64,000 nt of DNA. It comes from Immundisolibacterales bacterium. GTDB taxonomy: Bacteria > Pseudomonadota > Gammaproteobacteria > HK1. This document shows positions 27,370 to 50,935 of this stretch, one piece after another; the stretch's first letter is position 1; each line of letters opens with the position of its first letter. A program made the position numbers and the translations under genes. Under the pieces are notes generated by a model. That model saw nothing but the letters and a program-made list of their open reading frames with translations, searched no databases and was not told the DNA's origin. The stretch lies in the NCBI GenBank assembly GCA_026712715.1, contig JAPOPW010000033.1, forward strand, positions 1-64,000, read 5' to 3'.

Positions 27370-27642
27370 GGCTCCCGGGTTGGTTGCGGAGTTCGCCGTG
27401 GATCGTGGGGGCAGACTAAGTCACCGGCCCGGACGGTGCAATCGCCGCGGCGAAGTGGACGCTGACGTCCGGCCCGACGCCGCCGCCCGCATGGTTTTGT
27501 GGCGCGTCCCGGCGTACCGCGCCCGGCACCGGCCGCAGACCGGCGCCCGTCCCGATTCGGGTTCGGTTGCTTGCCGGGGGGGTGCATGGGAACATCGGAA
27601 GCGCCAATTCAGAGAAATTCCGAACCCATGGGAGGCGATCAC

Positions 27643-29232
27643 ATGAACCGCAAAGTTCTGCTCGGAACCGCGGCCGCCGCACTCTCGATCGCCATGGGCG
27701 GACACGCCCATGCCGCGAAGTTCGTCTATGCAAGTCAGGGGGACCCGCGAACGCTCGATCCGCACGCGATGAACGAACAGCTCACCCTCTCGATCCAGAC
27801 CCAGATCTACGACACGCTCGTCGGCCGGGGAAAGAGTCTCGAGCTCGTGCCGAGCCTCGCGACGAGCTGGGAGAACGTCGGCGGCGCCACCTGGCGGTTC
27901 ACCCTCCGGCAAGGAGTGAAGTTCCACGAGGGACAGGACTTCACCGCCGAGGACGTCGCGTTCTCGATCGAACGCGGAAAGCCCGGTTCCCAGTTCCGGG
28001 CGTTTCTCGCCCACATCACGGACGTGCAGGTCGTCGACGACCACACCATCGACGTCACGACGGCCGAGGTCGACCCGCTGCTGCCGGGCAAGCTCTCCAC
28101 CCTGAACATCATGGACCGGGACTGGGCCGTCGAGCACGACTCGCAGAGCGTCAGCGACATCGGAGCGGACGCGGAGGAGATCCACGCGACCCGCCACGCG
28201 AACGGAACCGGTCCGTACCGATTGCAGCTCCGCGAGCCCGGCATTCGAACGGAGCTCGTTCGCAACGACGACTGGTGGGGGGAGAACCCGGGGAACGTGA
28301 CCGAAGCGACGTACCTTCAGATTACGTCGGCGCCGACGAGGGTCGCGGCGCTGCTGTCCGGCGAGGTCGACCTGATCATGGACGCACCGCTTCAGGACCT
28401 TCCGCGGATCGAATCCTCGCCCGATCTCAAGGTGCTGCAGGGCCCCGAGATCCGGACCCTGCTGATCGGGATGGACCAGCACCGCGAGCAGCCCCTGCAC
28501 GCGTTCGACGCGGACGGCAATCCGCTGGCGGCCAATCCGTTCAAGGACCTGCGCGTGCGCCAGGCGGTTGCGCACGCCATCAACGTCGACGTGCTGATCG
28601 ATCGGGTCCTGCGCGGCAACGGGGTCCCCGCCGGCATCGTGTCCATTCCCGGGCTGAACGGCTACGATTCCGAGCTCGACCGCCGGCCGGCCTTCGATCT
28701 CGACCGGGCGCGTGCCCTGATGAGCGAGGCCGGCTGGGGCGGCGGATTCCGAATCGGCTTCCTCTGTCCCAACAACCGCTACGTGAACGACACCGAGGTG
28801 TGCCGCGCGATCGCCGCGCAGCTCGCGCAGATCGAGATCGAGGCCGAAGTCGATTCGGTGCCGCGCAACGTCTACTTCTCGCGGCTCCTGGAGATCGACA
28901 CGTCGTTCTACATCATCGGCCTCACCGCTTCGGCCTACGACACCTTCGACCTCCTGCAGTCCAACCTGATGACCCGAGAGCCGCCGGACGGCCAGGTGAA
29001 CTTCGGACGCTGGTCGAACGCGGAGTACGACGCGGCGGTGGACGCGCTGAAGAGCGAGATCGATCCCGCGAAGCGGCAGGATCTCTACCGGCGCGCCATC
29101 ACCCTGGCGCGCGACGATCTCGCCGACCTTCGTCTCTACCACCAGGCGATCAACTGGGCGATGAAGTCCAACGTCGACGCGACCCTGCGTTCCGACAACT
29201 TCGTGCACCTGAAGTGGATAACCGTCAACTGA
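27643..29232 (+). CDS. Periplasmic solute-binding protein of a second peptide-type ABC transporter (family 5)
   Basis: A 529-residue binding protein with a Sec-type signal peptide (residues 1-23, ending HAHAA) directly followed by the family-5 start KFVYASQGDPRTLDPHAMNE. Further landmarks are WRFTLRQGVKFHEGQDFTAEDV, DLRVRQAVAHAINVD and RADLRLYHQAINWAMKS-like sequence near the end. ATG 27643 has a strong gggaggcgatcac site. It is divergent from the M20 gene, with 273 bases between, and is followed by two permeases but no ATPase. The ligand is probably a peptide-like compound. Confidence 0.9.
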   Translation: MNRKVLLGTAAAALSIAMGGHAHAAKFVYASQGDPRTLDPHAMNEQLTLSIQTQIYDTLVGRGKSLELVPSLATSWENVGGATWRFTLRQGVKFHEGQDFTAEDVAFSIERGKPGSQFRAFLAHITDVQVVDDHTIDVTTAEVDPLLPGKLSTLNIMDRDWAVEHDSQSVSDIGADAEEIHATRHANGTGPYRLQLREPGIRTELVRNDDWWGENPGNVTEATYLQITSAPTRVAALLSGEVDLIMDAPLQDLPRIESSPDLKVLQGPEIRTLLIGMDQHREQPLHAFDADGNPLAANPFKDLRVRQAVAHAINVDVLIDRVLRGNGVPAGIVSIPGLNGYDSELDRRPAFDLDRARALMSEAGWGGGFRIGFLCPNNRYVNDTEVCRAIAAQLAQIEIEAEVDSVPRNVYFSRLLEIDTSFYIIGLTASAYDTFDLLQSNLMTREPPDGQVNFGRWSNAEYDAAVDALKSEIDPAKRQDLYRRAITLARDDLADLRLYHQAINWAMKSNVDATLRSDNFVHLKWITVN

Positions 29233-29266
29233 CCGTCGCCTGAGGGAAGGGAAGCCGGCGCGCCCC

Positions 29267-30235
29267 ATGCTTGCGCATATCGTTCGCCGGCTTCTTCAGG
29301 GCCTCGTCGTGATGCTCGCGGTGGGGCTCGTCAGCTTCTCCCTCATCTCGTTCGTCGGCGACCCGGTCGCGAGCCTCCTCGGCCTCGATACCCCGCAGGA
29401 GGCGCGCGAGGAGCTCAAGGAGGAGCTCGGCCTCAACGACCCGTTCGTCGTCCGGTACGGCGCGTTCCTGCTGCGCGCGGCACAGGGCGATCTCGGTCTG
29501 TCCTACACCTCGTCACGGCCGGTCGTCGAGGTCATCGCCGAGCGGTTGCCCGCGACCATCGAGCTCACCGTGGTCAGCGCCGTGCTCGCGATCGTCCTCG
29601 CCATTCCGATGGGGGTGTACACCGCGCTGCATCGCGAGACCTGGGGGGCACGGCTGCTCCTCACCGCGTCGCTCGTCGGCGTCTCGCTGCCGACCTTCGT
29701 CATCGGCATCATGCTGATCCTCGTGTTCTCGGTGTCGCTCGGCTGGCTGCCGTCATTCGGCCGCGGGGAGCTCGTGCGAATCGGCTGGTGGACGACCGGG
29801 CTTGCCAGCATCAGCGGCTGGAAGTCGATCCTCATGCCGGCGGCATCGCTCGCGCTGGTGCAGATGACCTTCACCATGCGGCTCGTGCGCGCGGAGATGC
29901 TCGAGGGGCTGCGCACCGACTACATCCGGTTCGCGCGCGCGCGGGGCCTAACGAACCGAGCCGTCCACTTCCGCCATGCGCTCAAGAACACCCTGGTACC
30001 GGTGGTCACCGTCATCGGTCTGCAGGTAGGCACCCTGCTCGCGTTCGCGATCGTGACGGAGACGGTGTTCCAGTGGCCGGGAATGGGACTCCTGTTCATT
30101 CAGTCGGTGTCGACGGTGGACGTGCCGGTCATGACCGCGTTCCTGATGGTCGTGGGCCTCATCTTCGTGGTCGTCAATCTCGCCGTCGACCTGCTCTATC
30201 TGGCGATCGACCCGCGCCTGCACGTCACGCAATGA
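29267..30235 (+). CDS. ABC transporter permease, DppB type (second system)
   Basis: A 322-residue permease with about six membrane helices (first: LVVMLAVGLVSFSLISFVG) and the DppB hallmark ELGLNDPFVVRYGAFL. The coupling loop is DYIRFARARGLTNRAVHFRHALKNT. ATG 29267 follows gagggaaggga. It ends overlapping the next start by 4 bases (ATGA). Its helices and coupling loop are standard, so it should dock on a DppD/F-type ATPase encoded elsewhere. Confidence 0.9.
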   Translation: MLAHIVRRLLQGLVVMLAVGLVSFSLISFVGDPVASLLGLDTPQEAREELKEELGLNDPFVVRYGAFLLRAAQGDLGLSYTSSRPVVEVIAERLPATIELTVVSAVLAIVLAIPMGVYTALHRETWGARLLLTASLVGVSLPTFVIGIMLILVFSVSLGWLPSFGRGELVRIGWWTTGLASISGWKSILMPAASLALVQMTFTMRLVRAEMLEGLRTDYIRFARARGLTNRAVHFRHALKNTLVPVVTVIGLQVGTLLAFAIVTETVFQWPGMGLLFIQSVSTVDVPVMTAFLMVVGLIFVVVNLAVDLLYLAIDPRLHVTQ

Positions 30236-31170
30236 GCGAGCTCGCCTCGACTTCGGGGGGCGTGGGTCCCCGGTCGGTGTGGCAGAGCGACTTCGTCCAC
30301 CGCTTCCGCACCTCCCCGGTGGCCGTGCTGTCGGCGCTCGTTTGCGTGCTGTTCTTCGCCGGGGCCCTGCTCGCGCCGTGGATCGCGCCGACGAACCCCT
30401 ACGATCTGAAGACCCTCAATCTCCTGGACTCGCGTCTGCCCCCCGCATGGATGCCGGAGGGCGACGTGCGATACCTGCTCGGCACGGACAACCAGGGCGC
30501 CGGCGTGCTGTCCTCGATCCTGTTCGGCGCCCGCGTCTCGCTGCTGGTCGGCTTCGCCTCGGTGATCCTCTCGATGATCATCGGCGTCGCGCTCGGCCTC
30601 GTCAGCGGCTACTTCGGCGGGCGCACGGACGCCGTCATCATGCGCATGGCCGACGTGCAGTTGACCTTCCCGGCAATTCTCGTCGCCCTCCTCCTCGGCG
30701 GCATCGCCGACGCCGCCTTGCCGGAACACACCCGGGCATCGTTCTCGATCCTGATCCTCATCCTTGCCATCGGCGTCTCCAACTGGGTGCAGTTCGCGCG
30801 GACCGTGCGCGGCTCGACCCTCGTGCAGAAGAACCGGGAGTACGTGCTCGCGGCCCGGATGATGGGGTTGAGCGACTTGCGCATCATGTACCGGCACATC
30901 CTGCCGAACGTGATGGGCCCCGTGCTCGTCATCGCCACGATCGGCCTCGCGTTCGCGGTCATCACCGAGGCGACCCTGTCGTTCCTCGGGGTCGGGGTGC
31001 CGATCACCGAGCCGTCGCTCGGGATGCTGATCCGCTTCGGCTACGACTACCTGTTTTCCGGGGAATGGTGGACGGTGGTGTTTCCGAGCGGGGCGCTCGT
31101 CGTGCTCGCGCTGGCCGTCAACCTGCTGGGCGACTGGCTGCGCGACATGCTCGATCCCGGCCTGCGCTGA
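30232..31170 (+). CDS. ABC transporter permease, DppC type (second system)
   Basis: A 312-residue permease. A cytoplasmic N-terminus leads into a first helix (VAVLSALVCVLFFAGALL), then YLLGTDNQGAGVLSSILFGAR typical of DppC. The coupling loop is EYVLAARMMGLSDLRIMYRHILPNV. It overlaps the upstream permease by 4 bases. The operon ends here: the next gene is on the other strand. The missing ATP-binding genes make this an incomplete set, which could be energised by the fused ATPase at 21870-24011. Confidence 0.9.
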   Translation: MSELASTSGGVGPRSVWQSDFVHRFRTSPVAVLSALVCVLFFAGALLAPWIAPTNPYDLKTLNLLDSRLPPAWMPEGDVRYLLGTDNQGAGVLSSILFGARVSLLVGFASVILSMIIGVALGLVSGYFGGRTDAVIMRMADVQLTFPAILVALLLGGIADAALPEHTRASFSILILILAIGVSNWVQFARTVRGSTLVQKNREYVLAARMMGLSDLRIMYRHILPNVMGPVLVIATIGLAFAVITEATLSFLGVGVPITEPSLGMLIRFGYDYLFSGEWWTVVFPSGALVVLALAVNLLGDWLRDMLDPGLR

Positions 31171-37981: not shown

Positions 37982-38265
37982 TTCGTATCCTCCTGGTCCA
38001 TCGAGTCAGGGCCCGTTGGTTGGCCCTGCGGGGAGAACCAAGCTTAGATGCGGGGCATCTGAACCACAAGAGACGCACCGACGTTCCCGGCTTCTCGAAG
38101 ACCCGGGAGCCGGCCGGGGCAGGTTCCGGCGACCCGCGGTCCACGGGGGCGTTCTCGCCGCAAGTCCGCCATGACTCATCCGTAAAGATTGGGGCCCCGC
38201 AAGGAGTCTAGAATGGGCTGCGGGCCGGGGCACGCCCCACGCGTATCCCGCGGAGGGCAGCAGTC

Positions 38266-39372
38266 ATGACGGCCGAGGCCAACCCAGCCAATGACGGATT
38301 CCTGCAACTGGAGGGCGTGAGCAAGGACTTCGGCGGATTCCGCGCCCTCACCGACGTCAGCTTCAAGGTCGCCGAAGGCGAGTTCATCTGTTTCCTGGGT
38401 CCTTCCGGCTGCGGCAAGACGACCTTGCTGCGCTGCATCGCCGGCCTGGAGACGCAGACCCGGGGCAGCATTCGCATGGGCGGCGAGGACATTTCCTGGC
38501 TGCCGCCCTCGCGCCGCGACTTCGGAATCGTGTTCCAGTCCTACGCGCTGTTCCCGAACCTGACGGTGTCGGACAACATTGCCTACGGGCTCGTCAACAA
38601 GGGCTTGGCCCGACCCGAAATCGTCGCTCGGGTCACCGAACTGCTCGATCTGATCGGTCTCTCCGAGCACGTCTCCAAGTACCCCAGCCAGCTCTCGGGC
38701 GGCGAACAGCAGCGCGTGGCGCTGGCGCGGGCGCTCGCCACGTCGCCGGGCCTGCTGTTGCTGGACGAACCCTTGTCGGCATTGGACGCCAAGGTACGCG
38801 CGCGTCTGCGGCGGGAGATCCGCGCCATCCAGGACCGCCTGGGGGTGACCACCATCATGGTCACGCACGACCAGGAAGAGGCCCAGACCATGGCCGATCG
38901 GATCTTCGTCATGAACGGGGGCCGGATCGAGCAGTTGGGCACTCCGGACGAGATCTACGATGCACCGGCGACCCCGTTCGTGGCCGACTTCATCGGCGTC
39001 ATGAACTTCTTTCCGGTCACGGTCGTGGACGGGGAGGCGGTCACCCCGGGCAACCTGGCGCTCACCTGCGATGTCGGCGGCCTGAACCCCGGCGCCCGGG
39101 TGAATTGCGCGGTCAGGCCCGAAGACATCCTGCTGGTCGACGACGGTCGAGACGGCGGCGAGAACACCATCGAAGCGACCGTCAGCGACATCGAGTTCCT
39201 CGGGTCCTTCGTCCGCCTCTACCTTGAAGCGCCGGCCCTCGGTGACGGCGAATTGCGCGCGGACGTGCGCAAGGATCTGGCGCGGCGGCACGAGATCGCG
39301 ACCGGTCGCCCCGTCAGGGTGCGCATACCTCCGGCGACGATCCGGCTCTACGGCACCGGGCCGGCCGCATGA
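38266..39372 (+). CDS. ABC ATP-binding protein, 2-aminoethylphosphonate/Fe(III)-type
   Basis: A 368-residue ATPase. Walker A is GPSGCGKTT (45-53). Next are the Q-loop FQSYALFPNLTVSDNI and the signature LSGGEQQRVAL. Walker B is LLLLDEPLSALD and the switch His is in VTHDQEEAQTMAD. A TOBE-type C-terminal domain (about residues 270-368) follows. The sequence belongs to the PhnT/FbpC group. It overlaps the permease gene by 4 bases (ATGA). It starts a rightward operon divergent from its binding-protein gene, sharing one control region (37982-38265). Confidence 0.9.
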   Translation: MTAEANPANDGFLQLEGVSKDFGGFRALTDVSFKVAEGEFICFLGPSGCGKTTLLRCIAGLETQTRGSIRMGGEDISWLPPSRRDFGIVFQSYALFPNLTVSDNIAYGLVNKGLARPEIVARVTELLDLIGLSEHVSKYPSQLSGGEQQRVALARALATSPGLLLLDEPLSALDAKVRARLRREIRAIQDRLGVTTIMVTHDQEEAQTMADRIFVMNGGRIEQLGTPDEIYDAPATPFVADFIGVMNFFPVTVVDGEAVTPGNLALTCDVGGLNPGARVNCAVRPEDILLVDDGRDGGENTIEATVSDIEFLGSFVRLYLEAPALGDGELRADVRKDLARRHEIATGRPVRVRIPPATIRLYGTGPAA

Positions 39373-41069
39373 CGACGGCCGCCACCGCCCTTGACCGGGC
39401 GCAGGGCAAGCTGCGCCTGGATCGGGACGATCTGACGGTTCGCTGGCTCATTGTCGGCTTCGCGCTGTTCTTCGCGATCGCGCTCGTCATCCCGCTCTAC
39501 ATGATGGTCTCGCGCAGCTTCTTCGACCGGAACGGCGAGTTCATCGGGCTCGCCAACTACCGCGAGTACTTCGACACGCCGGCGCTGTTCCTCTCCATTC
39601 AGAACAGCTTCACCGTGGCCGGCATCAGCACCGCGATCGTCATCGTCCTGGCGTTTGCCTACGCCTATGCGCTGAACCGCACCTGCATGCGCTTCAAGGG
39701 CTTCTTCAAGGTCATCGCCATGGTGCCGCTGCTCAGCCCGTCGCTCCTCAAGGCGATTGCGCTGGTCTACTGGTTCGGCAAGCAGGGGATCCTGACGGAC
39801 CTGCTGTTCGGACACTCCATCTACGGGCCCATCGGAATCGTCATGGCCTCGGTGTTCTGGACCTTCCCGCACGCGGTCCTGATCATCGGCACGGCCCTGG
39901 CCCTCTCGGACTCTCGGCTCTACGAGGCCGCCGAAGTCCTGAAGACGAGCCACACCCGCATCTTTCTCACCATAACCCTGCCCGGCGCCCGTTACGGCAT
40001 CATCAGCGCCGTCATCGTGGTGTTCATCCTCGTCCTGACGGACTTCGGCGTGCCCAAGGTGATTGGCGGAAGCTACAACGTCATGGCCACCGACATCTAC
40101 AAGGAGGTCATCGGTCAGCAGAATTTCGAGATGGGGGCGGTGGTATCGGTCATCCTGCTGATCCCGGCGGTCATCGCCTTCGCCATCGACCGCATCGTGA
40201 CCCGCAGGTCGGTGGCCCTGCTGTCCTCCCGCGCGGTGCCCTACGCGCCGAAACCGAACTGGCTGGTCGACAACGCGATGCTGGTCTACTGCATCACGAT
40301 TGCCGTCCTGACCCTGGCCATTCTCGGCATGGCCCAGTACGCGGCCCTGGTGAAGTTCTGGCCCTACAACCTCGAGCTGACCCTGGACCACTACTCGTTC
40401 GAGGTCCAGGGCGCGGGCTGGGAGAACTTCTACAACTCCCTGAAGGTCGCCGCCAGCGTCGCTCTCATCGGCACGTTCGTGATCTTCATCGGCGCCTACG
40501 TGGTGGAGAAGCCCCGCCGTGATCCCGTCGCGCGCCAGGCCATCCAGATGATGGCGCTCCTGCCCATGGCGGTGCCGGGCCTGGTGCTGGGTCTGGCCTA
40601 CCTGATGTTCATCAACCACCCGTCGAATCCGCTCGGCTTCCTCTACGGCACGATCACGATCATCGTGCTCAGCACCATCACGCACTTCTATACCGTGACC
40701 CACCTGACGGCGGCGACCGCGCTCAAGCAGATGGACCGCGAGTTCGAGTCCGTCTCCGCCTCGCTGAAAGTGCCGCTGGCAAGGAGCTTCCGGCGCGTCA
40801 CGATGCCGGTGTGCATGCCTGCGATCTTCGATATCTCGATCTACCTGTTCCTGAATTCCATGACGACCGTTTCCGCGGTGATCTTTCTCTACGGACCGGG
40901 CACCAAGGTCGCCTCCGTCGCCGCCATCCACCTGGACGATTCCGGCGAGACGGCGGCCGCCGCCGCCATGGCCATGCTGATCGTCTATGCGTGCATCGTC
41001 GTGCGGGTCCTGCATGTCATCGTCACCGGGCGGCTCCTGTACCGTCTGCAGGCCTGGCGCCGAAGATAG
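39369..41069 (+). CDS. Two-module ABC permease, 2-aminoethylphosphonate/Fe(III)-type
   Basis: A 566-residue permease containing two complete transmembrane modules in one chain, as in FbpB and the PhnU-like proteins. First module: FALFFAIALVIPLYMMVSRSFF with the coupling loop RLYEAAEVLKTSHTRIFLTITL. Second module: VAASVALIGTFVIFIGAYVVEK with the loop EFESVSASLKVPLARSFRRVTM. About twelve helices are expected. It is co-translated with the upstream ATPase. Leucine codons here favour CTG, unlike the CTC-rich neighbours. Confidence 0.9.
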   Translation: MTTAATALDRAQGKLRLDRDDLTVRWLIVGFALFFAIALVIPLYMMVSRSFFDRNGEFIGLANYREYFDTPALFLSIQNSFTVAGISTAIVIVLAFAYAYALNRTCMRFKGFFKVIAMVPLLSPSLLKAIALVYWFGKQGILTDLLFGHSIYGPIGIVMASVFWTFPHAVLIIGTALALSDSRLYEAAEVLKTSHTRIFLTITLPGARYGIISAVIVVFILVLTDFGVPKVIGGSYNVMATDIYKEVIGQQNFEMGAVVSVILLIPAVIAFAIDRIVTRRSVALLSSRAVPYAPKPNWLVDNAMLVYCITIAVLTLAILGMAQYAALVKFWPYNLELTLDHYSFEVQGAGWENFYNSLKVAASVALIGTFVIFIGAYVVEKPRRDPVARQAIQMMALLPMAVPGLVLGLAYLMFINHPSNPLGFLYGTITIIVLSTITHFYTVTHLTAATALKQMDREFESVSASLKVPLARSFRRVTMPVCMPAIFDISIYLFLNSMTTVSAVIFLYGPGTKVASVAAIHLDDSGETAAAAAMAMLIVYACIVVRVLHVIVTGRLLYRLQAWRRR

Positions 41070-41163
41070 AACGGGCGGCGCGGCGAATGAATCCCGAGCG
41101 TGTGGAACTGCATTGCGAGCGTAGTCGGCAAGAATCAGGAAAATAGATGTTTTGCAGGAAGCC

Positions 41164-43251
41164 ATGACTGATTCCGGGCCAAGATGTCGCGTCGGAGTCG
41201 ACGTCGGCGGCACGTTTACCGACTTCGTGCTCGCCGGCGGCCCGCACGCGGGAGACGGCGGCGCGCGGCTCGTCTACCACAAGCAGGCGAGCACCACCCG
41301 AGAACCGGCGCGCGGCGTCGCCGAGGGGCTCCTCGCGCTGCTCCGCAAGGCGGATGCGGACCCGGGGTCGGTCGAGCTCGTCGTGCACGGGACCACGCTC
41401 GCCCTCAATGCGATCCTGCAGCGAAGGGGCGCACGGGTCGCGCTGGTCATCTCGCAAGGCTTCGGCGACACGATGGTGCTCGGCCGGGGCGGGCTGCCGA
41501 ACTCCTACAACTACAAGCACCCCAAGCAGGTACCGCTCGTCCCCACCCACATGGTCTTCGAGGCGGCGGCAAGGGTCGCCGCGGACGGCCGGGTCCTCGC
41601 GCGTCCGGGGGCGGAGGAAATCGGGGCGCTGGCCGCCGGGATTCGCGCCGTGGATGCCGAGACCGTCGTCGTCGTCGTGGTCAACGCCTACGCCCACCCC
41701 GCCCTCGAGGCCGAGCTGGCCGCGGCCCTCTCCGATCACCTGCCCGGGGTGCCGGTCACCGCCTCCGCACAGCTCTGGCCCGAGATCCGGGAGTTCGAGC
41801 GCACCACGGTCTGCGTGCTGAACGGTTTCGTGCACCCCATGATGGACCGCTACTACGCCGACCTGGCGGCTCGCATCGCGGACACCGGGATCGCGGCGCC
41901 GGTCCACATCGCCACGTCGAACGGCGGCACGGTCAGCATCGCGACGGCGCGCCGGCGTCCGGTCGACACGCTGCTCTCGGGACCCGCCTCGGGCGTCGTC
42001 GCGGCATCCCGGATCTCCGGGATTGCGGCCGAGCCGCGCATCGTCTCCCTCGACATGGGCGGTACGTCGAGCGACCTCGCGGTCACCCGGGACGGCGCGC
42101 CGGAGTACACGACGGAAACGCGCATCGGCCACCTTCCGCTCGTCGTGCCGGTCGTCAACGTGCGCGCCATCGGTGCGGGTGGCGGATCGATCATCTGGAC
42201 TGACGAACAGGGAGTGCTCAAGGTGGGGCCGGAGAGCGCCGGCGCGGAACCCGGGCCGGTGTGCTACGGGCGCGGCGGCACGCGGCCGACCGTCACCGAC
42301 TGCTACGTCGTGAGCGGCCTGATCGATCCCGCCCGCTTCCTCGGGGGCCGCATGCCGCTCGACGGCGACGCGGCGGAGCGGGCTCTGTCCGAAGTCGCGG
42401 AGCGCCTGCGCATCGACGGAGCCGACCGCGCCCTGCGGGCGGCCGATGCCGCGCTCCGGGTCGCGACCGCGCACATGGCGACGGAGATCTCGAAGAACAT
42501 GGCGGAGAAGGGTCTCGACGTGCGGGACTTCGCGCTCGTGCCCTACGGCGGCGCGGGACCGACCCACGCGCTTCGTCTTGCGGATGCGGCCGGCATCGGG
42601 CGCGTGATTGTCCCGCTGGCTCCGGGGACGTTCTGCGCGTTCGGGGCGATCGTGTCTGATCTGCGGCGCGACTTCGTCCGTTCGAAACGGTTGACCCTGG
42701 GATTCGATCCGACCGCGGGGGAAGCGCTCCGGTGCGTCGTGCAGTCCCTCGAGCGGGAAGCCGCCGGTTGGGTCGAGGCCGAGGGCGAGCTCGTGAGGAA
42801 CGCTCGATTCGAAGTTTCGGCGGACATGCAGTATCCACGTACCGCCTTCGAGCTCAACACGACGATTCCGGCGGATGCGTGGCAGCGCGGCGACGCCGGG
42901 GAGATCGCCGAGCTGTTCCACTCTCGGCACGAGCGGCTCTACGGATTCCGCGACCGGGACAGTCCCGTCGACATCACGACGGTGCGGCTGCGCGCGACCG
43001 CGCCCGCGCCGAAGGTCGCGTTTCCGGAGATCGCCGCCGGCGGGGAGCCCGAGCCGATCGGCCGCCGCCGCGTCCACCTCGATGGAGAATGGCTCGACGC
43101 CGTGCTCCACGACCGGCGCGAGCTGCGGGCGGGGAATCGAATCGTCGGCCCCGCCATCGTCGAGCAGGAAGACACGACGGTCTGGCTCTCGCCCGGCTGG
43201 CAGGCGTGCGTCGACCGGGTGGGCTCGATGCACGCGACGAAGATCGGATAG
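41164..43251 (+). CDS. hyuA: Hydantoinase/oxoprolinase A subunit (HyuA), second copy
   Basis: A 695-residue ASKHA-type ATPase subunit. The first signature is CRVGVDVGGTFTDFVLAGG, the second is SLDMGGTSSDLAVTRDG, and then come GAGGGSIIWTD and AGAEPGPVCYGRGG. With HyuB it hydrolyses cyclic amides at the cost of ATP. The likely start is ATG 41164, with gcaggaag just upstream. The partner hyuB begins 13 bases after the stop, so this is a full pair. It lies immediately after the phosphonate-type transporter operon. Confidence 0.93.
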   Translation: MTDSGPRCRVGVDVGGTFTDFVLAGGPHAGDGGARLVYHKQASTTREPARGVAEGLLALLRKADADPGSVELVVHGTTLALNAILQRRGARVALVISQGFGDTMVLGRGGLPNSYNYKHPKQVPLVPTHMVFEAAARVAADGRVLARPGAEEIGALAAGIRAVDAETVVVVVVNAYAHPALEAELAAALSDHLPGVPVTASAQLWPEIREFERTTVCVLNGFVHPMMDRYYADLAARIADTGIAAPVHIATSNGGTVSIATARRRPVDTLLSGPASGVVAASRISGIAAEPRIVSLDMGGTSSDLAVTRDGAPEYTTETRIGHLPLVVPVVNVRAIGAGGGSIIWTDEQGVLKVGPESAGAEPGPVCYGRGGTRPTVTDCYVVSGLIDPARFLGGRMPLDGDAAERALSEVAERLRIDGADRALRAADAALRVATAHMATEISKNMAEKGLDVRDFALVPYGGAGPTHALRLADAAGIGRVIVPLAPGTFCAFGAIVSDLRRDFVRSKRLTLGFDPTAGEALRCVVQSLEREAAGWVEAEGELVRNARFEVSADMQYPRTAFELNTTIPADAWQRGDAGEIAELFHSRHERLYGFRDRDSPVDITTVRLRATAPAPKVAFPEIAAGGEPEPIGRRRVHLDGEWLDAVLHDRRELRAGNRIVGPAIVEQEDTTVWLSPGWQACVDRVGSMHATKIG

Positions 43252-43264
43252 CGAAGGGCGGAAG

Positions 43265-45310
43265 ATGCGAATCGAGCCGGTCACCCTCGAGATCCTGAAT
43301 ACGAAGGTCGCCGCCGCGACCGAGGAGATGGCTCTCACCCTCAAGCGCACCGGGCGGTCCCTCTACGTCAAGGAGGCGGTGGACTTCGCGGTGGGGCTCG
43401 TGGATCTCAAGGGCAAGTTCTTCGCAACCCCCCGCCACTTCGGGTCCGCCCTCATCGACTACGACTGCATGCCGGCGATTGCCGGGGCGGGTGCGCTCGA
43501 GGAAGGCGACGTCATCCTCACGAACCATCCGTACTTCTCCGGCGGGCTCGTCAGTCACACCCCCGACCTCACGTTCATCAAGCCGTACTTCCACGACGGC
43601 CGGATCGTGTGCTACGGATACGACTTCATCCACTCGACGGATGTCGGCGGCAGGGTGCCGTCGTCGATTTCCCCGACCAGCTCCGAGATCTTCCAGGAGG
43701 GCCTCCTGATCCCGCCGCTCAAGATCAGGAAACGAGGCCGGCTCAATGACGATCTGATCGCGCTCTACCGGGCGAACGTGCGGACACCGGAGCTCAACCT
43801 GCAGGACATGTCCGCGATGTTCGCGGCCATCGAGACCGGAGAGCGGAGGGTCGCCGAGATCATCGCCGCCCACGGAGTCGACACCTTCGTTCGGGCGCAG
43901 GCCGACCTCCAGGGCTACGCGGCCGAGAAGTCGCGGGCGGTCCTGCGGCGGATCCCCGACGGCGTGTACGATTTCTGGGACTTCATGGACGACGACGCGG
44001 TGACCCCCATTCCGGTCCGCCTCCGCGTGCAGGCGACCGTGCGGGACGGCGCCGTGCATCTCGACTACAGCGGAACCGACCCGCAGGTGCTGTCCGCCTA
44101 CAACGTGCCGACCCTGTCGACCCGCCACCCGTGGCTCACGACCCGGATCATGCACTACGTCACCACGCACGATCCGACGCCCCCGCTCAACGCCGGCATC
44201 TTCGAGCCGGTGACGACCCACGTGCCCGTCGGCGCGATCCTGAACCCCGAGTTCCCGGCCGCGACCGGGGTACGGGCGGCCACCGCCTATCGCTGCAACG
44301 ATGCCGCAACCGGAGCGCTCAGCCACGGCGTGCCGCGGGACATGCCCGCGCCGAGCGGCGGCGCGATGGTGCCCGTCGTGCTGGCCGAGTTCGACAAGCG
44401 CACGAACCGGCGCAACGTGCTGGTGCTCAACTCGATCATCGTCGGCTCGGGCGCACGCTACGGCAGCGACGGCTACGACGGCGTGGACGGGTCGATCTCG
44501 ACCATCCGCAACACCCCGGCCGAGAAGTCCGAGCTCGAGGCAGGGGTCGAGATCCTCGAGTACCGGCTCAATCCCGATTCGGCGGGCCCGGGCCGCTGGC
44601 GCGGGGGCCTGGGGCTCCTTTTCGCCTTTCGCGTCACCCAGGGCGGGAGCGCCGTGCTCGGCCGCGGCCTCGAGCGTTTCCGCTTCCGGCCCTGGGGGAT
44701 GGCGGGCGGCCAACCCGGCGCCAACATGCGGGTCGTGCTCAACCGCGGGACGGAAGGTGAACGCGACCTCGGGAAGATCGACATGGTGCAGGTCGCCGAG
44801 GGCGACACGGTCACGTTCATGACGCCGGGCGGTGGAGGCTACGGCGACCCGTTCCTGCGGGACCCGTCGGCGGTGCTGAACGACGTGCGGGCCGGTCATG
44901 TGTCGGCGCAGTCCGCAGAGCGTGACTACGGGGTCGTGATCGATGGCGCGGCGGTCGACCCCGACGCGACCGCGGCGCGCCGCCGGGAGAGGCCGATCGA
45001 AGCCGACGAGCTGGCCTTCGACTTCGGGCCGGAACGCCGGGCCTGGGACGAGGTCTTCACCGACGAACGCATGTTCGCGCTCAACCGGCTGCTCCTCGAG
45101 GTCCCCTCCTCCGTCCGGCAGACCGTGCGTCAGTCGGTCTACTACCGGGTCGTGCCCAACCTCGAGGATCCGGAGAAGCTCGCGGCCAACGAGCTGATTA
45201 CCGATCCGGCGCGGCAGGGCGCACGCCTCGATCGGGAGATCGCGCGTCTCGAGCGGGCGCACGACGACGACGACGCTCCGGCGGAGGACGGGGCAGGGGC
45301 CGCGCCTTAG
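43265..45310 (+). CDS. hyuB: Hydantoinase/oxoprolinase B subunit (HyuB), paired with the second HyuA
   Basis: A 681-residue protein, longer than the 546-residue HyuB at 50932-52572. Conserved N-terminal segment MRIEPVTLEILNTKVAAATE is followed by VILTNHPYFSGGLVSHTPD, the GATGVRAAT-type core and the C-terminal MTPGGGGYGDPFLRDP. The extra C-terminal 120 residues (from about 560) are charged and specific to this copy. Site gaagggcggaag precedes ATG 43265. Together with the upstream HyuA it forms the heteromeric, ATP-dependent amidase. Confidence 0.93.
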   Translation: MRIEPVTLEILNTKVAAATEEMALTLKRTGRSLYVKEAVDFAVGLVDLKGKFFATPRHFGSALIDYDCMPAIAGAGALEEGDVILTNHPYFSGGLVSHTPDLTFIKPYFHDGRIVCYGYDFIHSTDVGGRVPSSISPTSSEIFQEGLLIPPLKIRKRGRLNDDLIALYRANVRTPELNLQDMSAMFAAIETGERRVAEIIAAHGVDTFVRAQADLQGYAAEKSRAVLRRIPDGVYDFWDFMDDDAVTPIPVRLRVQATVRDGAVHLDYSGTDPQVLSAYNVPTLSTRHPWLTTRIMHYVTTHDPTPPLNAGIFEPVTTHVPVGAILNPEFPAATGVRAATAYRCNDAATGALSHGVPRDMPAPSGGAMVPVVLAEFDKRTNRRNVLVLNSIIVGSGARYGSDGYDGVDGSISTIRNTPAEKSELEAGVEILEYRLNPDSAGPGRWRGGLGLLFAFRVTQGGSAVLGRGLERFRFRPWGMAGGQPGANMRVVLNRGTEGERDLGKIDMVQVAEGDTVTFMTPGGGGYGDPFLRDPSAVLNDVRAGHVSAQSAERDYGVVIDGAAVDPDATAARRRERPIEADELAFDFGPERRAWDEVFTDERMFALNRLLLEVPSSVRQTVRQSVYYRVVPNLEDPEKLAANELITDPARQGARLDREIARLERAHDDDDAPAEDGAGAAP

Positions 45311-46287
45311 CGGATGCGGCGGATGAGGTGACCGATGCCCTCGCCCCGGCGCACGCGGTCCGCAACGGTGATGAGGACGCAGTCATCCCACGGCGCCTCG
45401 ATGCGCCTGGCTCCGTCGGTCGCGATCAGCTCGCCCCTGGCGAACGTCTCGTGGCCCCGGAACTCGCCGGCCCAGCGAAACGCGTCGGTCTCCGCAGTCG
45501 GCGCGATCATGTCGGTGTAGAGGGCGATCTCGCCCTCATCCACGAGGGCTCCGTACCGGACCGCGGTGTCCCGATCGGTCATCTCGAGCGCGCGGAGAAA
45601 CCTCGCCGCGACGTTCAGGCAGTTGTCGACCGAGCGCCGGGCGAAGTGTGGACCGCACTCGGCGAGAAAGGCCGCCGCGGCGCAGTCGTGATCGCTGAAC
45701 CGGCCGTACTCGAAGAGGAGGCCGGAGTGCTCGCCACCGGCCCTTGCCGGACAGCCGACGTGATGCAGCGGGAATCCGATCCGGTCGCCAAGCCGACGAG
45801 TCGCCGGCTTCTCGATGTACGCGAGGAGCGGCGGGTCGTTCCACGGATCGGGGGCCCGATAGAAGCAATCCGACAGCAGGTCCAGCAGGACATCGGCATC
45901 GCGCCCCACCGGGCGCATCTGCCGCGCCCGCTCGACCTCGCGAGCCGTCGACGGCCCGTCGATGGTCGCGTCGTTCCAGATCCGGTTGAAGTTCACGTCC
46001 AGGAACTTCGATGGCGCCGGATCGTGGACGTCGAGCCGCTCGTAGGCTTCCACGTTGGCGAAGCTCAGGGTCAGGCGGCCTCGGATCGGTCGCACTCCGT
46101 CATCCAGGAGGGCGGCGACCGCCTCCGAGCCGCAGATCTCGTTGCCCTTCGAGAGCGAGTTGATCATGAGATGGGGACCCGCGACCCCCGAGTCGAACGT
46201 GTGGACGTAGTCGATGCCGGCGGTGCCCGCGCGATAGGGCGACAGATCGCGCGGCGTGACCTGAATGAGCGATGGTGGATAGCTCAA
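45307..46287 (-). CDS. Succinylglutamate desuccinylase/aspartoacylase-like protein lacking zinc ligands
   Basis: A 326-residue protein of the AstE/aspartoacylase (M14-like) family: GVAGPHLMINSLSKGNEICG, then LTLSFANVEAYERLDV and DVNFNRIWND. In active enzymes the first zinc motif is HxxE; here the His is Lys (SLSKGNE). The next His of the DxH motif is Leu (LLDLLSDCFY). The catalytic-type GGEHSGLLFEYG segment remains. It is probably inactive as a zinc hydrolase or works differently. I infer a TTG start at 46287 with a strong gaggagg site; there is no ATG. Its stop overlaps that of the convergent hyuB. Confidence 0.72.
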   Translation of the reverse strand: MSYPPSLIQVTPRDLSPYRAGTAGIDYVHTFDSGVAGPHLMINSLSKGNEICGSEAVAALLDDGVRPIRGRLTLSFANVEAYERLDVHDPAPSKFLDVNFNRIWNDATIDGPSTAREVERARQMRPVGRDADVLLDLLSDCFYRAPDPWNDPPLLAYIEKPATRRLGDRIGFPLHHVGCPARAGGEHSGLLFEYGRFSDHDCAAAAFLAECGPHFARRSVDNCLNVAARFLRALEMTDRDTAVRYGALVDEGEIALYTDMIAPTAETDAFRWAGEFRGHETFARGELIATDGARRIEAPWDDCVLITVADRVRRGEGIGHLIRRIR

Positions 46288-46319
46288 CTCTTCCTCCTCG
46301 CGACCGCGGGCGGCGTGGC

Positions 46320-47240
46320 TCAGCGCGCCGCCGCCGAGAGGTTCGCGGCGGCGGCCTCGATCTCGACCCGGGCGGGCTGGGACGACTGCGCTCCGGGCCG
46401 GGTGCAGGCGAGCGACCCGGCGGCGGCGGCGTAGCGGGCCGCCTCGCGGAGGTCGCGGCCGGCGGCGAGGGTCGCCGCGAGCACCCCGCAGAACGTGTCC
46501 CCGGCCCCCGTCGTGTCCACCGGGCGTATGGGGAGGGCCGGCGTGCGGATTGCCTCGCGGCCGGTGTGGCAGACGGCGCCCTCCTCGCCGTAGGTGGCGG
46601 CGACGATCAGTCCGAAGCGGCGCGCGAGCCATTCCGGCAGGCGCTCCGGGGGCTCGTCGCCGCCCCCCGCGTGGGCCGCCACCTGGACGATCTCAATCTC
46701 GTTCACGATGAGCACGTCGAGGGCGGCGAGGACGTCCTCCGGGACCGGGAATGCGGGGGCCGCGTTCAGGAGGATTCGGCAGCCGCGCCGCGCGGCCCGG
46801 TCGACCAGCCGCCGGTTCTCCTCGAGGGGGACCTCGTGCTGGAGGAGCAGGACCGTGTCGCCATCCAGCAACTCGTCCGGCACCTGGTCGTGGGTCACCC
46901 GGGTGTTGGCCCCGGACGCGACCGCGATGGTGCTCGCGCCCGTCCCTTCCTCGACCCAGATGGTGGCGCACCCGGTCGGCTCGGACGACTCCTCCACCCG
47001 GGACAGGTCCACGCCCTCGGACCGCATCCGGGCGAGAGCGGGGGGCGCGAAGGCGTCCGCCCCCCCCCGGCCGACCATCGCGACGTCCGCGCCGGCACGG
47101 CGAGCCGCATGGGCCTGGTTCGCGCCCTTTCCGCCCGGCGAGATCACGCAGCCGTGACCCAGCACGGTCTCGCCCCGTTCGGGTAGCCGAGCGAGGTTGA
47201 CGGCGATGTCGATGTTGATCGAGCCGAAGACGATGACCAT
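46320..47240 (-). CDS. PfkB-family carbohydrate kinase (ribokinase-like)
   Basis: A 306-residue kinase. The N-terminal PfkB signature is FGSINIDIAVNLARLPERGET and the adjacent GGKGANQAHAARRAGADVAMVG is the substrate-binding motif typical of ribokinase. The C-terminal motif DTTGAGDTFCGVLAATLAAG holds the catalytic Asp. These kinases phosphorylate ribose or related sugars or nucleosides with ATP. It precedes the aspartoacylase-like gene by 32 bases in the same (leftward) direction, suggesting an operon. Start at 47240 fits the family start (MVIVFGS). Confidence 0.88.
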   Translation of the reverse strand: MVIVFGSINIDIAVNLARLPERGETVLGHGCVISPGGKGANQAHAARRAGADVAMVGRGGADAFAPPALARMRSEGVDLSRVEESSEPTGCATIWVEEGTGASTIAVASGANTRVTHDQVPDELLDGDTVLLLQHEVPLEENRRLVDRAARRGCRILLNAAPAFPVPEDVLAALDVLIVNEIEIVQVAAHAGGGDEPPERLPEWLARRFGLIVAATYGEEGAVCHTGREAIRTPALPIRPVDTTGAGDTFCGVLAATLAAGRDLREAARYAAAAGSLACTRPGAQSSQPARVEIEAAAANLSAAAR

Positions 47241-47724: not shown

Positions 47725-48729
47725 ATGAAGACCTTCATGCGCCTGGTAGCCGTCGTCCTCGTCTTCGCCACCGCGGCTTGCGCCGCCACCGGCAACGACC
47801 GGGACCTCGGACCGCTCGTGACCGAGAGCGGCATTTCGTTCGAGCGAAACACGAGCTTCGACGGCGAGGTTCTGAGGATCGAGCTGCCCCGCGAGGACGG
47901 GGGAACGGAGAAGTTCAGCTCGGGCAGGGACGAATGGTTCAGCTCGTCCTGGGCGCCGTTCATTCCCAATCACGTGGGACGGCGCTGGGGGCTCATCAAG
48001 GCCGCGAGCGACCACACTTCTCTCGCCTATGCGGTGGTGAGCTGGGACAACGACGATCCGACCGACTACCTTGCGGTCGGCTACTGGCTTCGGTTTCCCG
48101 GGACCGTTTCCCGGCGTTTTCGTTCTCTGTCGGATGCCGAGAACACTCCATTCTTCGACGGACCGGAAGTCGATCCGTCCCTTCCGCCCCGGCTGCCGAT
48201 CTCGGGAACCGCGACCTACGTGGGTCCCGTCGGAGGGCTCTACACCTATCGCTACGGCAGCGATTGGATCGGGTTCGAGGAGCCCGTCGTGACGGAGGAG
48301 TTCCAGGGAATAATGACGCTCAGCGCGGACTTTTCGGACAACACCGTCGCGGGCTGCATGGGTTGTGTCGGCGACCTCGACATCAACCGCCAACACCTCT
48401 ACCTGCAGTTGGGATTCCGGCGCGGGGAGCCGCTGTCGCTTCCCACCGACTACGAAGTGCACTTCGGCGCGACGCCGATCAACCGCAACGGAACCTTCGA
48501 GCACACGGACGTCGAGGTCAGGCACCCGACGCGCCCGATCACGGGGTCGAGCGGGTTCTCGGGCGGAATGTTCTCCAATGTCCCGGACGCGGACGGAAAC
48601 CCGAGGCTGGCGATCGGTCTGACCAGAGCCGAATTCGACGAGGCGGACGGGAGCCAGGGCAAGTTCGAGGCGCTGTTCACCGGTTTGGGAGCTTCTCTGC
48701 GTCCGACCGAACCGAGCGGGGATCGCTGA
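47725..48729 (+). CDS. Secreted or lipoprotein of unknown function with a TbpB-like beta-barrel C-terminus
   Basis: A 334-residue exported protein. Residues 1-19 form a signal sequence (MKTFMRLVAVVLVFATAAC), and the Cys at position 19 could be lipidated, though the lipobox (TAAC) is not ideal. The middle holds a CMGC motif (AGCMGCVGDLD). The C-terminal region (GSSGFSGGMFSNVPDADG, then a FEALFTG end) resembles the eight-stranded barrel of transferrin-binding-protein-like and Slam-exported proteins. That resemblance is from general pattern, not a match. Its neighbours are a kinase and a hydantoinase A gene, which give no clue. Confidence 0.6.
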   Translation: MKTFMRLVAVVLVFATAACAATGNDRDLGPLVTESGISFERNTSFDGEVLRIELPREDGGTEKFSSGRDEWFSSSWAPFIPNHVGRRWGLIKAASDHTSLAYAVVSWDNDDPTDYLAVGYWLRFPGTVSRRFRSLSDAENTPFFDGPEVDPSLPPRLPISGTATYVGPVGGLYTYRYGSDWIGFEEPVVTEEFQGIMTLSADFSDNTVAGCMGCVGDLDINRQHLYLQLGFRRGEPLSLPTDYEVHFGATPINRNGTFEHTDVEVRHPTRPITGSSGFSGGMFSNVPDADGNPRLAIGLTRAEFDEADGSQGKFEALFTGLGASLRPTEPSGDR

Positions 48730-48844: not shown

Positions 48845-50935
48845 ATGACCTATCGTCTGGGTGTGGACATCGGCGGAACGTTCACCGATTTCGCCCTGTT
48901 CGACGAAGGCGGCAGCCGGATAGCCGTCCACAAGCGGCTCACCACGCCGGACGACCCGTCGGCGGCGGTGCTCGGCGGCGCGACCGCCCTTCTCGAGCGC
49001 GAGAACGTCGCGATGGCCGCGGTCGAATCAATCGCCCACGGCACGACCCTCGTCACCAACTCGATCATCGAGCGGCGGGGGGCAAGGGCCGGCATGCTCG
49101 TGACCGCGGGGTTCCGCGACATCCTCGACATGGGGTTCGAGCAGCGCTACGACCTCTTCGATCTGCGCCTGAGATGGCCCGATCCCCTGGTTCCGCGGCG
49201 CCTGCGACGGGAGGTCCGCGAGCGGATCGCCCATGACGGCCGGGTGACCGAGCCCCTCGACCGTGACGGCGTTCACGAGGCGGTGCACGGTCTCGTCAAC
49301 GAAGACGGCATCGACGCCCTCGCCATCTGCTTCCTTCACGCCTACGCCAATCCGATTCACGAGGAGGCGGCCGGCGAGGTGGTGCGCGAGGCCTTTCCGG
49401 ATCTCTACGTCTCGCGGTCCGCCGGGGTCTTCGGAAACATGCGCGAGTACGAGCGCTGGACCACCGCGACCATGAACGCCTATGCGCAGCCGATGTTCGA
49501 CCGCTACGTCGAGCGGCTCGAACGCGGGCTCGCGGAGTCGGGATTCGCCGGGCAGCTCCACATCATGACCTCCTCCGGCGCCTCGATCGTGCCGGAGACG
49601 GCCCGGCGCTTCCCGGTACGCGCCCTCGAGTCCGGACCCGCGGCCGGCGCCCTCATGTCCGCCCACCACGGCCGCAGCCTCGCGCTCCCCGACCTCCTGT
49701 CGTTCGACATGGGCGGAACCACCGCGAAGGGGGCGCTCATCCGGCGCTTCGCGCCGCTGAAGCAGTACGACCTCGAGGTCGGGCGGGTGCACGAGTTCAA
49801 GCGCGGCAGCGGCCTGCCCGCGAAGCTTCCGGTCATCGACATGATCGAGATCGGCTCGGGCGGCGGCTCGCTCGCCCGCGTCGACGAGCGCGGCCTCATT
49901 CGGGTCGGGCCGCGGAGCGCCGGCGCGGATCCCGGCCCCGCGTGCTACGGCAAGGGCGGCACCGGCGCCACCCTGACCGACGCGAACGTCGTCCTCGGCT
50001 ACCTCGACCCCGGCTTCTTTCTCGGCGGCGAGATGCGCCTCGACCCGATTGCAGCGCGCGAAGCGATCGAGCGGCACGTGGCGGGGCCCGCCGGGCTCGA
50101 GCCGATCCGCGCCGCGTGGGGAGTGCACGAGATCGCGAACGAGGACGTGGCCCGGGCGTTCCGGATCCACGCGTCGGAGCGCGGGTTCGACTATCGCGAC
50201 TCGTCCATGGTCGCGTTCGGCGGCTCGGGTCCGGTGCACGCGCTCGCGATCGCCCGCAAGCTCCGGATCCCGCGCGTCGTGTTCCCCATCGGGGCGGGGG
50301 TGATGTCCGCGCTCGGGTTGCTCGTCAGTCCGCTCGGATTCGAGGTCTCGCGCTCGCGGCGGGCGTTCGTGGCCGATCTCGACGCCGCGCAATTCGAAGC
50401 CATCATCGCCCCCCTCGTCGACGAGGCGACGGGGTTCCTCCGCCGCGCCGGGGTTGCGGAGCCGGCCGTCGTGTGCCGCCTGGACATGCGCTACCAGGGA
50501 CAGGGCTACGAGATCGAGGTGACCGTCCCGGGGGACGGCACGCGCGGCGGCTACGCAGCCGCATTTTCGCGGCTCGAAACGCTCTTTCGCGCCCAGTACG
50601 CGGAGATCTTCGCGGAGACCTTTCTCGACGAGCCGCTCGAGATCGTGAGCTGGAAGGTTGAGGCGGCGGGCTCCGAGGCGCCGCTCGCCTACCATGGCAT
50701 GCGCGGTGGCGAACGCGGGCGCGCGAAGCGTTCGCGGGCGCTCTGGTTCGGGGACGCCTTCGTCGACTGTGAGGTGATCGACCGTTACGGGCTCGCGGTG
50801 GGAACGACCGTCGAGGGCCCGGCCGTCGTCGAGGAGCGCGAATCCACCTGCGTGCTCGCCCCGGGAGACCGGGCGACCGTGGACGAGCGGCTCAACCTGG
50901 TGGCGGAGCTCGCGAACCGAGGAGGTGACGCATGA
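48845..50935 (+). CDS. hyuA: Hydantoinase/oxoprolinase A subunit (HyuA), third copy
   Basis: A 696-residue HyuA with full motifs: YRLGVDIGGTFTDFALFD, then LSFDMGGTTAKGALIRRF, GSGGGSLARVD and AGADPGPACYGKGG. The second phosphate motif reads GGTTAKG where the two other copies read GGTSSD, which suggests a different subclass and probably different substrate. ATG 48845 follows a purine-rich ggaaggagg site. Its stop overlaps the partner hyuB by 4 bases (ATGA), so the pair is translationally coupled. Confidence 0.93.
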   Translation: MTYRLGVDIGGTFTDFALFDEGGSRIAVHKRLTTPDDPSAAVLGGATALLERENVAMAAVESIAHGTTLVTNSIIERRGARAGMLVTAGFRDILDMGFEQRYDLFDLRLRWPDPLVPRRLRREVRERIAHDGRVTEPLDRDGVHEAVHGLVNEDGIDALAICFLHAYANPIHEEAAGEVVREAFPDLYVSRSAGVFGNMREYERWTTATMNAYAQPMFDRYVERLERGLAESGFAGQLHIMTSSGASIVPETARRFPVRALESGPAAGALMSAHHGRSLALPDLLSFDMGGTTAKGALIRRFAPLKQYDLEVGRVHEFKRGSGLPAKLPVIDMIEIGSGGGSLARVDERGLIRVGPRSAGADPGPACYGKGGTGATLTDANVVLGYLDPGFFLGGEMRLDPIAAREAIERHVAGPAGLEPIRAAWGVHEIANEDVARAFRIHASERGFDYRDSSMVAFGGSGPVHALAIARKLRIPRVVFPIGAGVMSALGLLVSPLGFEVSRSRRAFVADLDAAQFEAIIAPLVDEATGFLRRAGVAEPAVVCRLDMRYQGQGYEIEVTVPGDGTRGGYAAAFSRLETLFRAQYAEIFAETFLDEPLEIVSWKVEAAGSEAPLAYHGMRGGERGRAKRSRALWFGDAFVDCEVIDRYGLAVGTTVEGPAVVEERESTCVLAPGDRATVDERLNLVAELANRGGDA

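Follow-up and report, generated by a model that had tools for sequence, protein, structure and literature searches.

Enzymes of the AstE/aspartoacylase (ASPA)/aminoacylase 3 type (PF24827, M14-like) have described relatives in the acyl-amino-acid hydrolase DoeB/EutE, an N-acetyl-diaminobutyrate deacetylase of the same superfamily, and in the cyanophycin dipeptide hydrolase CphZ, which has the same fold. Proteins annotated as "M14 family metallopeptidase" or as AstE/ASPA are beta-Asp dipeptidases according to the portion of PMC10206079 consulted, in which the name CphZ is not used. Metal-site substitutions in the M14 fold also have precedents. The excerpted text of a review of M14 pseudopeptidases (PMC11266112) describes such substitutions, with non-catalytic roles, in AEBP1, CPXM2 and CPD domain III, and the M14 pseudopeptidases named there stem from vertebrates, Drosophila or yeast; aspartoacylase is not mentioned in its main text. 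Csd4, which has QxxE in place of the HxxE motif, keeps Glu49 and His128 and still binds metal with this one M14-type ligand changed (PMC4220969, in part). Here we describe a gene within a 64,000-nucleotide stretch of contig JAPOPW010000033.1 (assembly GCA_026712715.1, positions 1 to 64,000; hereafter the window) from an Immundisolibacterales bacterium. Its product (hereafter the target) is predicted to adopt the AstE/ASPA fold and has lost two of the three canonical zinc ligands, and we propose that it serves as a ligand-binding partner of the neighboring HyuA and HyuB proteins (HyuAB) and of an importer.

The target resembles AstE, ASPA and aminoacylase 3 over nearly the full length of its predicted fold (Z 19–22, 246–282 residues aligned), and it keeps the HxxE glutamate, the N-R motif and the catalytic glutamate. 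It differs from these enzymes in that both zinc-binding histidines are gone, a lysine stands in place of the active-site arginine, and the sequence scores below the Pfam gathering threshold. DoeB/EutE (6twm) occupies the top structural row, but the target departs from it in the loss of zinc ligands and in the absence of a TIGR02994 match, whereas CphZ (8ein/8eip; Z 20.0–20.5) is set apart by being an active enzyme. AEBP1, CPXM2 and CPD domain III offer precedents for new roles in an M14 fold with lost metal residues, but they are vertebrate or Drosophila proteins whose substitutions (N196, Q196 and A72/D196), in the excerpts of PMC11266112, include no lysine at the first ligand. Csd4 shares with the target a natural change of the first HxxE ligand, but in the target the third ligand is also lost. 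A literature search for aspartoacylase, pseudoenzyme and zinc together found no paper, and a bacterial pseudo-aspartoacylase tied to a hydantoinase and an importer was not found described in the literature searched.

The evidence for this loss comes from an alignment of 83 distinct family members, the window included, from which one sequence (L106, a duplicate of the intact relative L013) had been dropped from 84 and in which the partial L009 was retained. The roles of zinc-ligand and active-site residues are presumed to carry over from ASPA and AstE. In 81 of the 83 members the pattern is His/Glu (HxxE), Arg, Asn-Arg, His (DxH) and Glu (ECG); the remaining two, with K/E/K/NR/L/E, are the window gene and its ortholog (L012) in G001, another genome of the genus (the window's own genome being G000). 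The first zinc ligand, His in 81/83, is Lys47 in the target (KGNE, residues 47–50, codons AAG GGC AAC GAG), and the third, likewise His in 81/83, is Leu138 (DLLS, residues 136–139, codons GAC CTG CTG TCG). An earlier note on this DNA had read both motifs in this way, and both columns are indeed His in all 81 members besides the window gene and its ortholog. That note missed a third substitution common to the two proteins, namely Lys94 in place of an arginine (81/83 members) that we take to be ASPA Arg63. The second zinc ligand, Glu50 of HxxE, is kept in 83/83 members, as are Asn101-Arg102 and Glu210 (ECG), which we equate with ASPA Asn70-Arg71 and with the catalytic or general-base residue Glu178, respectively.

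An assembly or sequencing error was rejected as the source of these changes and is very unlikely, because all three recur in the G001 ortholog, which is 82% identical to the target in protein and 82.9% in nucleotide sequence. No further K/L/K member was present among the aligned members from the relative, phylum, collection and plasmid searches. In a 45-row alignment of the window gene and its ortholog with 43 others (omitting L002, a duplicate of L012, and the partial L009), columns 47, 85, 94, 138 and 308 are His, Phe, Arg, His and Pro in 43/43 others and are changed in both zinc-less members. The span from Asp136 to Pro153 is 7 residues longer than the corresponding Asp138 to Pro148 of L013. 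Coordinates of these and other features are collected in Table 1.

Table 1. Features of the target gene and its surroundings in the window.
Feature	Positions	Strand	Basis or remark
Predicted zinc-less AstE/aspartoacylase-fold protein (target), 326 aa, probable TTG start	45307..46287	-	ORF reading, predicted fold, ortholog L012
AGGAGG ribosome-binding site, 5 nt before TTG	46293..46298	-	sequence reading
Codon of Lys47, place of first zinc His (KGNE, not HGNE)	46147..46149	-	alignment
Codon of Lys94, place of otherwise invariant Arg	46006..46008	-	alignment
Codon of Leu138, place of third zinc ligand His (DLLS, not D[ILV]HS)	45874..45876	-	alignment
Longer loop after DLLSDC, residues 142–152	45832..45864	-	alignment; low model confidence
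Codon of Glu210, retained equivalent of presumed catalytic Glu (ECG motif)	45658..45660	-	alignment
HyuB (CapB-like), putative conserved partner, 88.5% identical in G001	43265..45310	+	HTPD...H motif present
HyuA (CapA-like), putative conserved partner, 77% identical in G001	41152..43251	+	profile match, ortholog comparison
Opp/Dpp/nickel-type ABC importer (SBP5, permB, permC), co-inherited	27628..31170	+	profile and ortholog comparison
PfkB (ribokinase-like) kinase, probably outside the unit	46320..47240	-	neighbor here, not in G001

The target is an intact gene under purifying selection, with no decay. Its open reading frame (ORF) runs uninterrupted for 326 codons from TTG to TAA, and neither a stop nor a frameshift is found in the window or in the G001 ortholog. 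Rates of nonsynonymous (dN) and synonymous (dS) substitution were estimated by the NG86 method from one G000–G001 ortholog pair per gene, with a bootstrap interval. For the target, dN is 0.097, dS is 0.585 and dN/dS is 0.166 (0.116–0.251), similar to the values for its neighbors and in keeping with the earlier proposal that gene integrity is selected despite the lost ligands (HyuB, 0.143; HyuA, 0.275; importer substrate-binding protein (SBP), 0.116; intact paralog, 0.225). When the protein is divided into three arbitrary thirds, residues 111–200, which include Leu138 and the longer loop, give the lowest ratio (0.095). The motif segments, which were picked after the alignment had been seen, are identical at 50/53 residues, as opposed to 217/273 elsewhere (Fisher p 0.005). 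Loss of catalytic or metal residues combined with purifying selection, as expected of a pseudoenzyme, describes the target, as judged from one ortholog pair.

In the family tree, the zinc-less pair forms one clade (support 100/100) within a six-row group that includes the intact relatives L013 and L029–L031 (100/99). The tree drew warnings about long branches meeting and about L013 being a long row; support for the fork that joins L013 with L029–L031 is 95/76. Because the zinc-less clade is nested among intact members, and because the motif is kept elsewhere in the family and in AstE and ASPA proteins of known structure, the tree indicates that the loss is derived and that it would have preceded the split of the two genomes. 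The maximum-likelihood stem of the pair is long (1.37), but general acceleration, which we do not claim, is not seen in simple relative-rate counts, where 2 of 30 comparisons exceed 3.84.

The earlier note called the sequence otherwise well conserved as an AstE/aspartoacylase, a description that its direct profile score does not bear out; the evidence of homology comes from intact relatives and the predicted fold. PF24827 gives the target 11.7 bits (E 0.19), below the gathering cut-off of 25; the NCBIfam AstE model gives E 0.053; and a phmmer search of Protein Data Bank sequences with the target alone returned no match at E up to 1. TIGR02994 (DoeB/EutE) likewise has no target match at E up to 1 and matches 2 of 30 intact members (best E 0.023). 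PF24827 matches 30/30 intact members scanned at E up to 1, with L013 at 44.2 bits, and a profile of intact members retrieves the solved AstE and ASPA sequences. The structure model of the target has a predicted local distance difference test score (pLDDT) of 88.8 and a predicted template modeling score (pTM) of 0.89, and that of L013 has 93.4 and 0.92. Structural matches are headed by DoeB 6twm (Z 22.0, root-mean-square deviation 3.3, 269 residues; level with the rows below it), followed by AstE 2g9d (Z 21.8, 282 residues, deviation 3.8) and ASPA 4nfr (Z 20.3); Foldseek aligns the target model to 2bco with E 4.1e-14. The model therefore gives the target a predicted AstE/ASPA fold, comprising the catalytic domain and the C-terminal part. 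In G000, three genes exceed the PF24827 cut-off, two of them on contigs C18 and C44, and the target is not among them; an intact paralog is encoded at G000:C38. Shiga-toxin family hits to one of 30 alignment members (E 0.0024–0.021) are weak and look like chance.

Family matches at about 30–49% identity occur in 9/143 relatives, the window's genome included, and in 16/398 genomes of the phylum; further matches come from 36/149 relatives of G594, 20/195 relatives of G681, 17 genome-collection loci and 22 plasmid records. These sample sets overlap and, except for the genome-collection and plasmid sets, cover the phylum only. In the search of G594 relatives, 17/37 matches came without a locus and stand outside the alignment, and 4/22 plasmid hits were fetched and aligned. 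Among 369 genomes sampled evenly across the class, G000 itself was the only one with a family member.

HyuB and the target lie tail to tail with overlapping stop codons. The G001 locus runs SBP5-permB-permC-hyuA-hyuB, followed by the target on the opposite strand and by an Opp-type double ATPase; the ortholog there has both the shared substitutions and HyuAB as its neighbor. Both G000 and G001 carry the target together with orthologs of HyuB (89%) and of the importer SBP (91%). In G002, the third member of the genus searched, whose genome is a single contig (97% complete), nothing closer was found than an intact target paralog at 38%, a HyuB at 54% and an SBP at 41%. Target, HyuAB and importer, present together in two genomes and without close orthologs in the third, thus travel together and are co-inherited across the three genomes of the genus.

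Neighborhoods were also compared by tblastn around 42 of the family loci (41 of intact members plus G001) rather than all 83 members, the importer being scored as present when at least two of SBP5, permB and permC lay within 6 kb. The importer is nearby in 11/41 intact-member neighborhoods and HyuAB in 0/41 (12/42 and 1/42 with G001), counts that include one-sided neighborhoods and several rows from a single genus and that are not set against a background rate of importer proximity. The association with the importer therefore looks old and that with HyuAB looks new in the zinc-less lineage. No relative with an intact HxxE motif was found at this locus, which leaves the earlier interpretation unrefuted on this point. 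Gene calls in neighborhoods, as distinct from these tblastn counts, came from a simple codon-usage script that missed some genes, for example the target in L146, L023 and L069.

The earlier description of the gene as wedged between hydantoinase loci did not hold, since only the left HyuAB is kept beside the target and its other side in G001 is occupied by the Opp-type ATPase. The PfkB kinase that the gene was said to follow is indeed separated from it by a 32-nt gap in the window, but the linkage is not conserved: no PfkB ortholog occurs in the 18 kb surrounding the G001 target. PfkB was rejected as a functional partner because its orthologs lie elsewhere in G001 (82%) and in G002 (85%), the latter lacking a close target ortholog.

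HyuA and HyuB score best to the caprolactamase proteins CapA and CapB, at 474.5 and 251.3 bits, respectively, both far under the equivalog cut-offs of 1000. They belong to the same superfamily as caprolactamase. HyuB has His98, Asp101 and His123 in its HTPD...H motif, and these match by position, without alignment, the CapB metal residues His99, Asp102 and His124 given in the consulted part of PMC8453981. The same source describes hyuABC systems in which HyuAB opens hydantoin and HyuC removes the carbamoyl group. Because it retains this metal motif, HyuB could account for metal hydrolysis in the unit.

Several further observations concern this gene neighborhood. Between the importer and hyuAB, the window carries 2-aminoethylphosphonate-type ABC transporter genes (36947–41069; PhnS2 and PhnT2 models over cut-offs). 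A 50-residue piece in L012 (7596–7748), ahead of the Opp ATPase, resembles by eye the C-terminal end of an Opp-type permease and may be a permease remnant. HyuB-type genes at E up to 1e-60 number 24 in G000, 23 in G001, 17 in G002 and 28 in G016, a very large expansion. Paralogous importer-HyuAB units occur on G000:C61 and on G002:C1 near 5.06 Mb, beside a putative aminotransferase-like gene (an N-terminus reading). A second HyuAB pair in the window (48845–52572) is adjoined by a HisD-family dehydrogenase (52986–54302; TIGR00069, 456.6 bits), and positions 47725–48729 encode a 334-residue protein whose N-terminus resembles that of a lipoprotein; Pfam gives it no match at E up to 1, and no NCBIfam model exceeds its cut-off (best E 0.07). 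That the importers might be specially related was considered and set aside, as the L013 permeases are 57–60% identical to those of G001 but another G000 unit is equally near (about 61%). Nor did the neighbors of intact relatives point to a substrate: Opp/Dpp importer, SSADH, MFS-like and TctA-like genes vary among them, the last two labels coming from N-terminal sequences.

We propose, with a probability of about 60%, that the target is a pseudo-deacylase that does not hydrolyze its ligand but serves HyuAB and the importer as a binding or regulatory partner. Its ancestor would have been an AstE/aspartoacylase-fold hydrolase of a subfamily often found beside importers. Before the two genomes split, zinc binding would have been lost through replacement of the first His by Lys47, the third-ligand His by Leu138 and the active-site Arg by Lys94, with the fold, the N-R motif, the HxxE glutamate and the general-base glutamate retained. 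The pocket may bind a small ligand, most likely a compound imported by the Opp/Dpp system or a substrate or product of HyuAB, here taken to be a linked ATP-dependent lactamase/hydantoinase, and the target, in a regulatory or scaffolding role, would pass on its ligand state. Plausibly, the imported compound or a HyuAB product was once the substrate of the deacylase, which turned into a binding partner after a change of route. From the sequences and their context we infer the absence of zinc and of hydrolysis, the binding of a ligand and the identity of the partner; that HyuAB is this partner is the least certain step and is offered tentatively. The earlier suggestion of a function other than zinc hydrolysis was right in kind, given the lost ligands, the intact gene and the selection on it, though wrong on PfkB and on two flanking loci.

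Several points weigh against this proposal. The trait is present in two sequences only, which leaves a single pairwise comparison as the basis of the selection estimate. The target and hyuAB lie on opposite strands and hence are not co-transcribed, and in the window the importer is about 10 kb from hyuAB with other ABC (ATP-binding cassette) genes between, although the two are contiguous in G001. SBP and HyuB paralogs are common in all three genomes, and the neighborhood may therefore say little about partnership. Finally, an alternative metal site could be built from the clade-specific residues Asp140, Cys141, Cys179 and His187.

This last point leads to the alternative that survives best, in which Glu50 and loop residues (Asp140/Cys141, Cys179 and Glu186/His187 in GEHSG) would bind metal, leaving a hydrolase of shifted specificity. 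Lysine rarely binds zinc, and here two of the three canonical ligands are gone, one of them to Lys, with the active-site Arg changed too. Asp140, Cys179 and His187 nonetheless occur in both zinc-less members and depart from the consensus residues of the other 43, and Cys141 and Glu186, taken from a pairwise alignment, lie in loops that adjoin the motif in sequence. Both loops are modeled with low confidence (mean pLDDT of 60 for residues 141–150 and 59 for 181–190). Metal binding can survive the change of one ligand, as Csd4 indicates (PMC4220969, in part), but the target has two changed, and we consider a rebuilt site rather unlikely.

A somewhat less probable alternative is a metal-free enzyme with a new reaction, in which the Lys47 ammonium would replace the zinc charge near Glu50, or Lys47 would act as nucleophile or Schiff-base former, with Glu210 as base. 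Lys47, Glu50, Lys94, Asn101, Arg102 and Glu210 do not differ between the two members, and the motif segments show strong constraint, but Leu138 takes a polar group out of the site, and no member of the fold is known to work in this way in the literature and structure titles surveyed. Decay to a pseudogene or neutral remnant is highly improbable: catalytic residues are lost, the stem is long, and among 76 columns with at least 88% conservation in the 43 others, 20 are changed in both members, 3 in one and 53 in neither, but the upper bound of dN/dS and the intact frames in both genomes argue against it, as do the relative-rate counts.

The start of the gene is probable rather than proven. The earlier note assigned a TTG start with a very strong ribosome-binding site, and AGGAGG does stand ahead of this codon; in the G001 ortholog, however, CTG replaces TTG behind GAGGAAGG (L012 8001–8003) and is a possible start codon in its own right, so the assignment of TTG is not fully settled.

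Family-based annotation would label the target a hydrolase or overlook it. With lysine in the place of zinc, a metal-free Lys47/Glu50/Lys94/Glu210 site might even support new chemistry or the sensing of a substrate of an ATP-dependent lactamase, although we regard this as unlikely. If the proposed role is correct, a selected zinc-less bacterial relative of aspartoacylase, adjacent to an importer and to an amide-opening HyuAB that retains its metal motif, would provide a compact system for how a dead hydrolase turns into a sensor or regulator.

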